NCBI GenBank assembly: GCA_020052615.1
Contig: JAGVOT010000103.1
Location: 1 to 32,887 of the forward strand
Source of the DNA: Nitrospirota bacterium
GTDB taxonomy: Bacteria > Nitrospirota > UBA9217
Length of the DNA: 32,887 bases
Reading direction: 5' to 3'
Part shown: positions 4,821 to 29,566 of the stretch, one piece after another
Position numbering within the stretch: the stretch's first letter is position 1
How the letters are laid out: each line of letters starts with the position of its first letter
The notes under the pieces: model-generated
What the model saw: the letters and a program-made list of their open reading frames with translations, nothing else
Database searches by the model: none
Told to the model about the DNA's origin: nothing
Program-made: the position numbers and the translations under genes

Positions 4821-4896
4821 GGGCCCATAGCTCAGCTGGTAGAGCTACCGGCTCATAACCGGTTGGTCCCAGGTTCGAGTCCTGGTGGGCCCACCA
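4821..4896 (+). tRNA. tRNA with CAT anticodon (elongator Met or Ile2)
   Basis: A 76-base cloverleaf can be folded by eye. The acceptor stem GGGCCCA/TGGGCCC is closed by discriminator A and an encoded CCA. The D arm has GCTC..GAGC, the anticodon stem is ACCGG/CCGGT with loop CTCATAA, and the T arm is CCAGG-TTCGAGT-CCTGG. The anticodon is CAT. The fully paired acceptor end and lack of three GC pairs at the base of the anticodon loop argue against initiator tRNA. It is either elongator tRNA-Met or the tRNA-Ile whose C34 is modified to lysidine by TilS; I cannot separate these from sequence alone. Confidence 0.95.
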
Positions 4897-6370: not shown

Positions 6371-6750
6371 ATTTCAGAGCGGGTGAGGTGATCGCTCTCC
6401 GGAAACGGGGGGAGGAAAGTCCGAGCTCCACAGGGCAAGGCGGTCCCGAAACGGGACAGGGGGCAACCCCATGGAAAGTGCCACAGAAAAGAAGACCGCC
6501 CGCAAGGGCAAGGGTGAAACGGTGGGGCAAGAGCCCACCAGATTCCCGGGCGACCGGGAATGCTTGGAAAACCCCGCCTGGAGCAAGATCACATAGGGAA
6601 GCGCTTCCCGCAAGGGAATAAGGACGGCCCGTCCGAGACTTCCGGGTAGATCGCTCGAGCCGTTGAGCAATCAACGGCCCAGATAAATGCTCACCGCCCC
6701 GGGAGACCGGGGAGACAGAACTCGGCTTACGGCCCGCTCTGATTTTTTTT
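6371..6750 (+). ncRNA. rnpB: RNase P RNA (bacterial type A) with terminator
   Basis: Catalytic RNA that removes 5' leaders from pre-tRNAs. Helix P1 pairs CAGAGCGGG (6375-6383) with CCCGCTCTG (6733-6741). Conserved blocks appear in order: GAGGAAAGTCCGAGCTCC near 6411-6428, ACAGAAA near 6483, AGGGTGAAACGGTG near 6510, the AGATAAATG block near 6681 and ACAGAACTCGGCTTAC near 6715. All are hallmark segments of the universal core. Eight T directly after P1 (6743-6750) serve as terminator. The ends are estimated from P1, accurate to a few bases. A reading frame spans part of this region on the + strand, but it is an artefact of the GC-rich RNA. Confidence 0.97.
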
Positions 6751-25204: not shown

Positions 25205-26236
25205 CTAGCGCTGTTGTTCGGTCCAGCCGTCCTGCCGCAGTTCATAGACGCCGAGCAGACGGATGCGGGACCGGTCGTAGCAGTAGAGGTATTTCGCCAG
25301 CCTGCCGGACAGGTCGACATCGACCACATACCTGTTGGAACAGGGGCTGGCACGGAAGGTCTTCGTTTCCCCCATCCAGCGGAGGTCTGTGAGGCCAGGA
25401 TCGAATTTCCGGGTATGATACCGCAGTCCCTTCCTTTTCATATTCTCGGGCAGATCGACCTTCACGAAATGCTCGGTCACCTCCAGCAGCGTCTCGGCCT
25501 CACGGTCACCTTCAAAGGCCTTTTTTGCTGCGAGCTCTTCGGACAGGGCCTCGCGTCTGGCCTCAGGCTGCCGAACGGCGCCGGTCGATGGCGCGGCCTG
25601 CTCTGTGATGAAGGACGGCGCTGCGGTCCGGGGAGCGGCTGCCGGTTTTCCTGCTTTCTCTTCTTTTGCCGGCGCCGGTGCCGATGCGACCGACCGGTCC
25701 TGCGGCGCCGGCGGCGCCGGTTTCTCATAGGCATATTTCATATCGAGAGATTTGTAGTCCGGCTTTCCGGGCGCCTGCTTTGCCTTTGGCACGGCGTCCC
25801 GCACAGCTGCATCCTTTTCCCGCATGTGATCACCTGCAGGAGCTTCCTTTTTTGACACCATGCCGACAGGTTCCTCAGTATACTTCTGTGTGGGCTTGAT
25901 GCTGTGATAGATATAGAAGGCGGTAACCGCAAGGAACAGGACAGCCACTGCCTGAACCGGGAAGTGTCCGAGCACGGGAGCAAAAACACGCTGCCACAAC
26001 CCCCTTTTCGAGTCCCGCTCTTCCCGCACCTTCGCCATGATCTTCTGCGTCATCCAGGCAGGGGCGTCCACCTCCTCGACCGCATGAATGTGCTCGACGG
26101 CACTGCGCAGTTCGCGCAGCGCTTCGGAGCATTCCGAACAGGTCTTCAGATGATGCTCAATTTCCGCCTGTGCACCGGGTGCAACAGCGCCATCGATGAA
26201 TTCCGATAATTTATGGCGAATCTCTTCGTGGTTCAT
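25205..26236 (-). CDS. Anti-sigma factor with zinc-binding ZAS domain and large extracytoplasmic part
   Basis: 343 residues. The N-terminal ZAS motif H29-x3-C33-x2-C36 (HHLKTCSEC) binds zinc and holds the partner ECF sigma. One membrane helix lies at about 92-111 (FPVQAVAVLFLAVTAFYIYH). A Pro/Ala/Lys-rich linker (about 115-230) leads to a C-terminal domain of about 100 residues (VTEHFVKVDLPENM, LRWMGETKTFRASPCSNRYV), probably periplasmic and possibly of the DUF2275 type; that name is from memory. The start codon overlaps the sigma factor stop (ATGA), so the two proteins are made together in near equal amounts. Confidence 0.88.
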   Translation of the reverse strand: MNHEEIRHKLSEFIDGAVAPGAQAEIEHHLKTCSECSEALRELRSAVEHIHAVEEVDAPAWMTQKIMAKVREERDSKRGLWQRVFAPVLGHFPVQAVAVLFLAVTAFYIYHSIKPTQKYTEEPVGMVSKKEAPAGDHMREKDAAVRDAVPKAKQAPGKPDYKSLDMKYAYEKPAPPAPQDRSVASAPAPAKEEKAGKPAAAPRTAAPSFITEQAAPSTGAVRQPEARREALSEELAAKKAFEGDREAETLLEVTEHFVKVDLPENMKRKGLRYHTRKFDPGLTDLRWMGETKTFRASPCSNRYVVDVDLSGRLAKYLYCYDRSRIRLLGVYELRQDGWTEQQR

Positions 26237-26856
26237 AAGAGGTCTCCCATGGTCTTCTTCAAACAGTCCTTCACCGATTCCCGCGCCCGGAACAGCCGCG
26301 ACTTGACCGTGCCCGCGGCGACCTTCAGCATCCCGCCGATCTCTTCGTAGGAAAGATCCTGCATATCCCGAAGGACCAGGACCTCGCGGAAGTCCGGCTC
26401 AAGCATCTTGATGCAGTCCAGGATCTTTGCCTGTACATCCCGTTTTTCCATCCGGTCCAGGACCGAGGGCTCGCCCGAAGGAGGATCGGCCATCACCTCG
26501 CCGTCGTCCGTCCGGATCGGCGCATCGAGGGAAACGGGGACCCTCGACTGGTGCAATCTCATCCGCTTCAGCCGGTTCCTCGAAAGGTTCATGGTGATGG
26601 CCGTGAGCCAGGTCGAGAACCTCGCTTCCGCCCGGAAACCCTTCAGGTTTCTGTAGGCCGAGACGAAAGCATCCTGCACGACCTCCGAGGCGTCGTCGAA
26701 ATTGCCAAGGAAGCGGAAGGCGATGTTCAGCATCCGCTTCTGGTATTTCTCCACCAGGGACTCGTATGCCGACAGGTCGCCCTGTCGGGACAAGGCGACA
26801 AGGGCCGCATCATCGTCAAGGTTGGCCGAACTGTTCTCTGCTGGAATATTAGACAT
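26233..26856 (-). CDS. ECF (RpoE-like) RNA polymerase sigma factor
   Basis: 207 residues with only regions 2 and 4, as in ECF sigmas. Region 2: YESLVEKYQKRMLNIAFRFL, DDASEVVQDAFVSAYRNLKG, RFSTWLTAITMNLSRNRLKR. A linker with acidic residues follows, then region 4: LEPDFREVLVLRDMQDLSYE, EIGGMLKVAAGTVKSRLFRAR. The N-terminal 20 residues are acidic. It is coupled by a 4-base overlap to its anti-sigma partner, the standard arrangement for membrane-stress regulons. A GGAAC element occurs 22 bases before the ATG but without a matching -10 at the right distance, so autoregulation is not shown. The gene is divergent from the selenoprotein gene. Confidence 0.92.
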   Translation of the reverse strand: MSNIPAENSSANLDDDAALVALSRQGDLSAYESLVEKYQKRMLNIAFRFLGNFDDASEVVQDAFVSAYRNLKGFRAEARFSTWLTAITMNLSRNRLKRMRLHQSRVPVSLDAPIRTDDGEVMADPPSGEPSVLDRMEKRDVQAKILDCIKMLEPDFREVLVLRDMQDLSYEEIGGMLKVAAGTVKSRLFRARESVKDCLKKTMGDLL

Positions 26857-26940: not shown

Positions 26941-26986
26941 AGAACGGCCCGGGAATGACCAACGGGAAATAAAAGGAGGCCAGATC

Positions 26987-27202
26987 ATGGCGGGCAGGAT
27001 AACGATCTTCGGGAAGGCCGGTTGACCGTATACCGTGAAGGCCCGGGAGGCCTATGGCGCAGAGGCGGACTACTTCGACGTGAAACTAGACGCAGCGAAA
27101 CTGGACGAAATGCTCAAGTATTCCAGGGGACAGCGCAGTGTACCGGTGATCGTTGAAGGCGATAAGGTCTCGGTCGGCTACGGAGGCTCATGAGGGGTAT
27201 GA
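26987..27202 (+). CDS. Glutaredoxin-like selenoprotein with two selenocysteines (UXX-star type)
   Basis: ATG 26987 follows AAAAGGAGG by about 8 bases. The frame meets TGA at 27023-27025 and again at 27191-27193, and ends at TGA 27200-27202. With both internal TGAs as selenocysteine the product has 71 residues. The N-terminus MAGRITIFGKAGUPYTVKAR has the glutaredoxin active site with Sec13 in place of Cys (UPYT), then REAYGAEADYFDVKLD and the cis-Pro segment RSVPVIVEGDKVSVGYGG. The end is S-U69-G-V-stop. I recall a family called UXX-star whose name refers to exactly this C-terminal U-x-x-stop. The glutaredoxin pattern continues unbroken across the first TGA, and a SECIS-like hairpin follows each TGA at a similar distance. 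A frameshift or nonsense-damaged gene is the alternative. The neighbouring thioredoxin reductase fusion suggests its reductant. Confidence 0.85.
27039..27053 (+). promoter_or_regulatory. SECIS-like hairpin for the first UGA
   Basis: AGGCC-CGGGA-GGCCT forms a 5-bp stem with a 5-base loop beginning 19 bases after UGA 27023-27025. Bulged extension pairs (A38/T55, CC33-34/GG56-57) lengthen it. Position and G-rich apical loop fit the bacterial SECIS pattern. Confidence 0.55.
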
Positions 27203-27223
27203 GCGGCGGCAGGATGCCGTCGT
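27203..27223 (+). promoter_or_regulatory. SECIS-like hairpin for the second UGA
   Basis: GCGGCGGC-AGGAT-GCCGTCGT forms an 8-bp stem (two G-U pairs) with a 5-base loop beginning 18 bases after UGA 27191-27193. It begins directly after the true stop codon, so it is free of coding constraint. No T run follows, which argues against a terminator. Confidence 0.6.
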
Positions 27224-27342: not shown

Positions 27343-27900
27343 ATGTCAGTGGATAAGTTCATACTGGACAAGAACAATGCGGTGCTTCTGATCATCGACA
27401 TCCAGGAGCGGCTTGCCGTCGTTATGGACAGGAAGGACCAGGTCGTGAAGAACACGCTGCACCTGGTCGAGCTTGCCAGGATGCAGAACCTTCCGGTCGT
27501 GGTCACCGAACAGTACCCGAAAGGCCTCGGCAGGACACTGCCGGAGATCACGGCAGCGCTGCCGGTATACCTGCCCATCGAGAAGGTCTCGTTCAACTGC
27601 TGCGGCGAGGCGTCGTTCAACGAACAGATGAAGCGGCTCGGAAAGAAGAAGATCATCGTCACCGGCATGGAGACCCATATCTGCGTGCTCCAGACCAGCC
27701 TCGGGCTCATCAAGGGCGGCTTCGATGTCCACCTGGTGATGGACGCCGTGTGCTCGAGGACCAAGGCCAACTGGAGATCGGGCGTTGAGCTTATCCGCGA
27801 CGCAGGCGGCGTTCTGACCAACACCGAGACGGTCCTGTTCCAGCTTCTTGGCGTGGCGGGCACGCCGGAGTTCAAGACGATCTCGAACCGGATCAAGTAA
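27343..27900 (+). CDS. Isochorismatase family cysteine hydrolase
   Basis: 185 residues from ATG 27343, with an AAGGAAGGGGGAA purine tract upstream. The catalytic triad of the family is visible: D19 in LLIIDIQERL, K81 in PIEKVSFNC and the nucleophile C114 in GMETHICVLQT. The fold is the alpha/beta nicotinamidase/isochorismatase type; family members hydrolyse nicotinamide, isochorismate, N-carbamoyl compounds or peroxyureidoacrylate, or remain uncharacterised. The motifs VVTEQYPKGLGRTLPEI and VMDAVCSRTKANW match the common bacterial subgroup annotated only as hydrolase. It sits between the selenoprotein and the thioredoxin reductase fusion on the same strand. Confidence 0.92.
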   Translation: MSVDKFILDKNNAVLLIIDIQERLAVVMDRKDQVVKNTLHLVELARMQNLPVVVTEQYPKGLGRTLPEITAALPVYLPIEKVSFNCCGEASFNEQMKRLGKKKIIVTGMETHICVLQTSLGLIKGGFDVHLVMDAVCSRTKANWRSGVELIRDAGGVLTNTETVLFQLLGVAGTPEFKTISNRIK

Positions 27901-27925: not shown

Positions 27926-29566
27926 ATGGCCGAACAGCAGGAACTTATTCCCGATGATGTGAAACAGACCATCAAGCAGACCTTTTTCGAACAACTGAAG
28001 GCCGATGTGGCGATCGAGGTCTATACCCTCGCCGGCATCAACGACAAGTTCAACGACTTCGCTGTCGACCTGGTCCGGTCCCTGGCCACCCTGTCCGACA
28101 AGATCAAGGCGTCCTTTCATACGGTCGGAGACGCGCAGTCTCAAAAGCGGGCCGTGACCCGCTCCCCTTCGGTGCTGATCGCTCCCGATAAGTATCGCAT
28201 GCGCTACACCGGGGCCCCGATGGGTGAAGAGGGACGGTCCCTGCTCGTGGCGATCATGATGGCGTCGTCGGGAGCGACCATCCTGTCGGAACCGTCGCTC
28301 AAGAAGCTTGCCGAGCTCCGCGAGAAGCGCGATATCCAGGTCTTTGTCAGCCCCACCTGCCCCTATTGCCCGCAGCAGGTCCTTGCCGCATTCGCTTCGG
28401 TCATCGCGAGGCCGGACCTCATCTCCGCCGAGGTCATCGAGATCTATGAGAACCACGACCTCGCCGAAAACCTCGGGTCCCTGACCGTGCCCCAGACTTT
28501 TGTGAACGCGATCTTCACCGGCGCCGGGCTCCAGCCCGAGCCGGCGTTCGTCGAGACCCTGCTCACGCTCAAGGAACCGCAGATGGCCTCCACCCAGATA
28601 TCGGGGGAGCCGCAGGACAAGGACCTCGTCATCATCGGCGGCGGACCGGCCGGACTTACGGCGGCCATCTACGCGGCACGCGCCGGCTTGAACTGCGTCG
28701 TCATCGAAAAGTCGAACCTTGGCGGACAGGTGGCCATCACGCCCGTGGTGGAGAACTACCCCGGCTACATGCGCATCGGCGGCAAGAGCCTGGTGGACCT
28801 CATCGCCCAGCAGGCGTCCCAGTACGCCGAGGTGCACGTGGGTGAGTACGTGACCGAGGTGTCAAAGGAGAGGGACGACGGCAGGTTCCACCTCAAGACG
28901 AATCACGCGATCTACAACACCCGGGCGCTGCTCCTCGCCACGGGGGTGGGGAACCGCGCGCTGGACGCCCCGGGCGCGCAGAAGTTCTACGGCAGGGGCG
29001 TGAGCTACTGCGCAACGTGCGACGGGTACTTCTTCAAGGACGGCAAGAAGGTGGTCGTCGTCGGCGGCGGGAACACGGCGGTGACCGACGCGCTCTATCT
29101 GCACAACCTCGGCTCGAAGGTCACGCTGGTCCATTGGCGGGACAGCCTCCGCGCCGAGGCCCGGCTCCAGGAAAGCCTGAAACAGACCGGCATCCCGGTG
29201 CTCTGGAACAGCGAGGTGCGGGAGATCCACGGCGACAAGGTCGTGCGGTCCGTAAAGATCGTGGACAAGGGCTCCGGCACAGCCCTGGGAATGGCCGTGG
29301 ACGGCGTATTCATCGCCATCGGCTACATCCCGAACAACGAGGTGGCGAAGCAGCTCGGCCTTGAAGTGGATGACCTGGGCTACATCAAGACCGACCTCGC
29401 CACGATGCGGACATCGATACCGAACGTCTATGCCGCCGGCGACATCACCGGCGCGCCCAAGCAGATCGTCGTCGCCGTTGCCCAGGGATCCACAGCGGCT
29501 ATGACGGCCTTCGAGGAACTGCAGGCTGAAGGTGTCAAGAAGAGATCGCCCGAAAAAATGGCCTGA
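27926..29566 (+). CDS. Thioredoxin reductase fused to an N-terminal protein disulfide oxidoreductase module
   Basis: 546 residues from ATG 27926, 25 bases after the hydrolase gene. Residues 1-215 resemble a two-fold thioredoxin/glutaredoxin-like PDO unit. The first fold (about 25-115) has no active-site cysteines. The second has C145-P-Y-C148 (FVSPTCPYCPQQ) and the cis-Pro loop TVPQTF. Residues 230-546 are an FAD/NAD(P)H thioredoxin-disulfide reductase: GGGPAGLTAAIYAARAG, the redox-active C362-A-T-C365 (YCATCDGYFF), GGGNTAVTDALYL and the final AAGDITG. The layout is like AhpF, with the thioredoxin-like part in front of the reductase. Electrons would pass from NAD(P)H through FAD and CATC to CPYC and then to a partner, plausibly the nearby selenoprotein; this last step is inference. 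Confidence 0.92.
   Translation: MAEQQELIPDDVKQTIKQTFFEQLKADVAIEVYTLAGINDKFNDFAVDLVRSLATLSDKIKASFHTVGDAQSQKRAVTRSPSVLIAPDKYRMRYTGAPMGEEGRSLLVAIMMASSGATILSEPSLKKLAELREKRDIQVFVSPTCPYCPQQVLAAFASVIARPDLISAEVIEIYENHDLAENLGSLTVPQTFVNAIFTGAGLQPEPAFVETLLTLKEPQMASTQISGEPQDKDLVIIGGGPAGLTAAIYAARAGLNCVVIEKSNLGGQVAITPVVENYPGYMRIGGKSLVDLIAQQASQYAEVHVGEYVTEVSKERDDGRFHLKTNHAIYNTRALLLATGVGNRALDAPGAQKFYGRGVSYCATCDGYFFKDGKKVVVVGGGNTAVTDALYLHNLGSKVTLVHWRDSLRAEARLQESLKQTGIPVLWNSEVREIHGDKVVRSVKIVDKGSGTALGMAVDGVFIAIGYIPNNEVAKQLGLEVDDLGYIKTDLATMRTSIPNVYAAGDITGAPKQIVVAVAQGSTAAMTAFEELQAEGVKKRSPEKMA

Follow-up and report, generated by a model that had tools for sequence, protein, structure and literature searches.

A predicted two-selenocysteine glutaredoxin-like protein of UXX-star family 1 and its conserved gene neighbourhood in a Nitrospirota lineage

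Glutaredoxin-like proteins with two selenocysteines (Sec) are already described as NCBIfam NF041114, listed as "distant Grx-like protein 1 (UXX-star selenoprotein family 1)", with the motif UxxT and 2 Sec, in a 2026 review that traces the entry to a metagenome paper from 2008 (PMC13188914, Table 1). The same review models the bacterial SECIS element (bSECIS) as a hairpin with a loop of 3–9 nt, a stem of 4–16 bp, a G at loop position 1 or 2 and a distance of 16–37 nt between the UGA and the loop (PMC13188914). Alongside family 1, the superfamily NF041212 includes UXX-star families 2 and 3 (NF041211 and NF047338) and the HUGP/GUXX-star fusion (NF045501), all likewise featuring a C-terminal Sec motif. 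Since the gene studied here matches NF041114, a family listed with two Sec, the protein, including both of its Sec, is of a catalogued kind and the double-Sec protein is not new. The member found in this genus is ordinary, and its interest rests on the genes around it, which suggest a possible reductase and a possible regulator for a member of a family that is catalogued with no reaction assigned to it.

The gene lies on the forward strand at 26987..27202 of the window, i.e., the whole stretch of 32,887 nucleotides that was analysed, which also carries an RNase P RNA gene (6376-6744) and a tRNA-Met gene (4821-4896). It consists of 71 codons and a TGA stop, and it starts with an ATG at 26987, separated by 7 nt from an AGGAGG ribosome-binding site (26974-26979, + strand), so that the start is as well positioned as the original prediction had claimed, and the coordinates and description given there are right. 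When TGA is translated as Sec (TGA=U), the protein sequence is MAGRITIFGKAGU-PYTVKAREAYGAEADYFDVKLDAAKLDEMLKYSRGQRSVPVIVEGDKVSVGYGGSU-GV-stop. The first Sec codon (27023..27025, +) specifies residue 13 of a UPYT active site (residues 13-16), the second (27191..27193, +) specifies residue 69 of a C-terminal U-G-V-stop, and the third TGA of the frame (27200..27202, +) is the true stop codon. A glutaredoxin-like frame had been read through the first UGA and a second UGA placed three codons from the end. Profile searches bear out both points: the match to PF00462 (E 3e-9) covers residues 5-60, while the match to NF041114 runs through UGA69 (residues 5-71). The latter spans profile positions 1-70 of 70, with 108 bits against a cut-off of 72, and the superfamily profile NF041212 gives 77 bits against a cut-off of 66; the score, the UxxT Sec motif and the C-terminal Sec-x-x-stop expected of UXX-star members are all found. 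Regarding structure, AlphaFold predicts a glutaredoxin fold (pLDDT 83.6), for which the best Foldseek matches are glutaredoxins and NrdH, with a probability of 1.00 and no E-value below 0.001, and the positions conserved in the alignment, in which Sec was entered as C, are residue 13 (Sec or Cys), Pro53, Gly64, GG 66-67 and residue 69. Altogether, we give a probability of about 0.95 to the reading of this gene as a UXX-star family 1 selenoprotein of glutaredoxin fold, with Sec13 (UPYT) and Sec69 (U-G-V tail) each served by its own SECIS. The two-Sec reading is upheld by the Sec machinery of the genome, by the conservation of both UGA codons with their hairpins and by the curated two-Sec family.

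The search for selA, selB, selC and selD, on whose outcome the prediction had been made to depend, recovered the whole set in the genome of the host (3.99 Mb, 97.8% complete). The genes selA (613 bits) and selB (384 bits) are adjacent to each other on contig 96, selD (362 bits) is on contig 59, and a tRNA-Sec (64 bits) is confirmed by ARAGORN with the anticodon TCA, all four being over their cut-offs. According to this reading, SelB and tRNA-Sec would decode each UGA via its own SECIS, one intragenic and the other just past the stop, and, judging from the sequences, Sec is almost certainly inserted at both codons. Three further observations concern the same genome. First, selD (C59:21410-22333) has an in-frame TGA of its own, as is common in Sec-containing SelD. 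Second, two tRNA-Sec genes exceed the Rfam cut-off (C50:31653-31747 and C130:47997-48087), the latter being divergent (52.9 bits) and having a CCG-domain Fe-S protein and a rhodanese nearby; more than one tRNA-Sec was not found in any other relative searched, and nothing pertinent to bacteria with two selC genes turned up in the literature searched. Third, another glutaredoxin-like gene (C37:29615-29785) has an in-frame TGA within a UPYC motif and is preceded by a hydrophobic stretch in its frame context, its nearest family being YruB, at 83 bits for a cut-off of 88.55.

Upstream of the UXX-star gene, on the reverse strand, are a divergent ECF sigma factor gene (26236..26856; PF04542/PF08281, TIGR02937) and a gene for an anti-sigma factor with a zf-HC2 zinc finger and a DUF2275 domain (25208..26236), both of which are adjacent in relatives too. 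Downstream, on the forward strand, follow two conserved neighbours: an isochorismatase-family hydrolase (27343..27900; PF00857, E 5e-30) and an AhpF-like protein (27926..29566; TIGR03140, TIGR02187, TIGR01292) in which a glutaredoxin/thioredoxin-type N-terminal part is fused to a thioredoxin reductase, and which reaches 298.6 bits with TIGR03140, under the cut-off of 502.9. The gene order in the taxonomic family of the host is anti-sigma <- ECF sigma, UXX-star -> isochorismatase -> AhpF-like reductase. In that family, 13 genomes (own included) have the UXX-star gene: every one of them has the isochorismatase next to it, 12 have the AhpF-like gene (the contig of the remaining one ends before it) and 10 have the ECF sigma gene divergently upstream. 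At three deltaproteobacterial loci, the sigma and anti-sigma genes are downstream instead, and, since the neighbours differ outside the taxonomic family, the AhpF-like partner and the sigma control are not general. Regarding glutathione, neither gshA (PF04262) nor GCS2 (PF04107) nor gshB (TIGR01380) was detected in the 97.8% complete genome, which speaks against glutathione as the available reductant, although it may be taken up from outside. This lack of detected glutathione-synthesis genes and the conservation of the neighbourhood in the family of the host are what our analysis contributes.

From the predicted fold, the gene neighbourhood and the failure to detect gsh genes, we infer a glutathione-independent redoxin, in which Sec69 would be the resolving partner of Sec13. 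In such a thiol/selenol oxidoreductase, Sec13 would attack the substrate and Sec69, beside the conserved GG loop, would resolve it as a diselenide, to be reduced in turn by the adjacent AhpF-like NAD(P)H reductase, while expression would probably be controlled by the ECF sigma/zinc-finger anti-sigma pair. The GG loop contributes to glutathione binding in ordinary glutaredoxins. The neighbourhood and the lack of detected gsh genes are consistent with a glutathione-independent relay, possibly a U13–U69 diselenide, the relay itself being what we infer from them. The complete scheme, i.e., a glutathione-independent diselenide redoxin in this lineage, with Sec69 in the place of glutathione, the AhpF-like protein as electron donor and the sigma/anti-sigma pair as a thiol-stress switch, is tentative, and we would put it at somewhat less than even odds.

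The chief rival to a redox pair is that both Sec bind a metal or a metalloid, such as mercury or arsenic. Five homologues, the Syntrophaceae-type variants L068, L070, L073, L076 and L079, adjoin an SBF-family transporter that is presumably ACR3-like, which would fit such a role, and Sec of the UXX-star family have been suggested to bind metal or to interact with unknown substrates (PMC13188914). However, the protein keeps the glutaredoxin fold with its active-site position, the neighbourhood in the family combines a reductase of AhpF-like type with sigma and anti-sigma genes, and no metal gene was seen among the immediate neighbours scanned, so that we regard metal binding as rather unlikely, albeit worth keeping in view. 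The two-Sec reading, the hairpins, the family membership, the neighbourhood and the lack of detected gshA/gshB were computed here.

Both predicted SECIS elements fall within the published bSECIS limits. SECIS 1 (27039..27053, +) has a 5-bp stem (AGGCC/GGCCT) and a CGGGA loop (27044-27048) that begins 18 nt after UGA13; the loop of the best-scoring hairpin is in the same place in 31/53 homologues. Because this hairpin overlaps the coding sequence and, in the window, 10/100 shuffles are equally stable, it is modest evidence alone. SECIS 2 (27203..27223, +) comes directly after the stop codon and is wholly 3' of it, with a 9-bp stem (GCGGCGGCA/TGCCGTCGT) and a GGA loop (27212-27214) located 18 nt from UGA69, and 1/100 shuffles is equally stable. 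In 35 loop-aligned sequences, 92.9% of its pair cells are standard (65.8% when shuffled, at most 54% in slid controls), a percentage inflated by construction since these sequences were selected by, and centred on, their own best hairpin. In the same set, two-sided changes occur at all 8 pairs, the first loop G is invariant, and the covariation score reaches 0.794, versus 0.267 when shuffled (0/500) and no more than 0.265 in slid controls. Independent support comes from two sources: the fixed distance to UGA69, the loop starting about 18-21 nt after it in nearly all homologues while the position was not imposed within roughly 15-22 nt, and the shuffle comparison of unselected sequences, in which the hairpin has a mean score of 17.5 versus 9.0. 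Covariation thus argues strongly for the predicted SECIS 2, whereas the case for the predicted SECIS 1 is weaker. Lying past the stop, SECIS 2 would provide a clean bacterial example of a Sec signal entirely outside the coding sequence.

Matches to the protein (E <= 1e-6) were found in 21/61 genomes, own included, with exactly two in-frame TGAs in 20/21, a recurrence much too frequent to be due to chance, and a collection-wide scan yielded 45 loci, mostly from Nitrospirota and deltaproteobacterial assemblies, but also from Acidobacteria, Armatimonadetes and others. A wider phylum search showed the two-UGA pattern in many more taxonomic families. Codons were tallied by hand over 60 distinct sequences (window included), of which 57 could be parsed at codon 69. 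Codon 13 is TGA in 53 of the 60, Cys in six (L043, L068, L084-L087) and unreadable in one, the wider phylum search adding a further Cys13 form (L114). Codon 69 is TGA in 56/57, the lone exception being a TGG at locus L055, and the two codons after it nearly always encode G-V or similar. The original prediction looked for Cys in Sec-free relatives at both positions; it was seen at position 13 (6/60 plus L114), but at position 69 in none of the homologues examined; hence, the usual Sec/Cys replacement test speaks for position 13 only. From these codons, the predicted Sec is kept more strictly at position 69 than at position 13. Homologues ending at either UGA with no Cys/Sec equivalent, which would have told against the two-Sec reading, did not turn up, both codons being conserved. 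On the side of the variants, L124 has a TAA at the Sec13 codon and L055 the TGG mentioned above, each in a single metagenome assembly and possibly due to errors or decay, while the five Syntrophaceae-type variants have an insertion before the C-terminal Sec and some of them read beyond the usual end.

It could be argued that Sec13 alone is real and that the protein ends at residue 68, given that UGA normally terminates translation and that the fold is nearly complete by codon 69. A stop at this place should nonetheless drift as the terminal stop does. The codon three after 69 is TAA in 23 homologues, TAG in 14, TGA in 18 and CAT in two (stop in 55/57), whereas codon 69 stays TGA, which indicates that it is not a stop; and since the terminal stop is TAA or TAG in most relatives, the Sec codon can be told apart from it. 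Together with the G-V-like codons preceding that stop and the covarying SECIS-like hairpin at a fixed distance, this makes a true stop at UGA69 very improbable. As for a decayed glutaredoxin gene with both TGAs as nonsense mutations, a gene so short with two stops in frame might evoke it, but its probability is practically nil and we consider it ruled out, because dozens of genomes from several phyla share both TGAs while conserving the remaining protein, and NF041114 membership speaks against it too. A genome-wide reassignment of UGA was also set aside as improbable, as UGA ends this very gene and the Sec machinery suffices.

Compared with known systems, the two-Sec protein of the window is closest to NF041114, with which it shares a whole-length match, the UxxT motif, two Sec and the C-terminal U-x-x-stop, no feature having been found that distinguishes it from the family. 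Its scores with the related profiles NF041211, NF047338 and NF045501 are 39.7, 44.1 and 39.2 bits, for respective cut-offs of 100, 97 and 325. Dithiol glutaredoxins and NrdH (PF00462; E. coli Grx3, clostridial Grx1) are alike in fold and active-site position, yet the window's protein is shorter, stopping at the GG loop apart from its Sec tail, and has UPYT instead of CPYC, in a host where no glutathione synthesis was detected. Finally, mammalian thioredoxin reductase, an unrelated flavoenzyme, has the C-terminus Gly-Cys-Sec-Gly, in which the partner of the tail Sec is the adjacent Cys. Both proteins have a Sec near the penultimate position of a C-terminal tail, a likeness to be taken as an analogy only: in the protein studied here, the redox residue nearest to the tail Sec would be Sec13 rather than an adjacent Cys.
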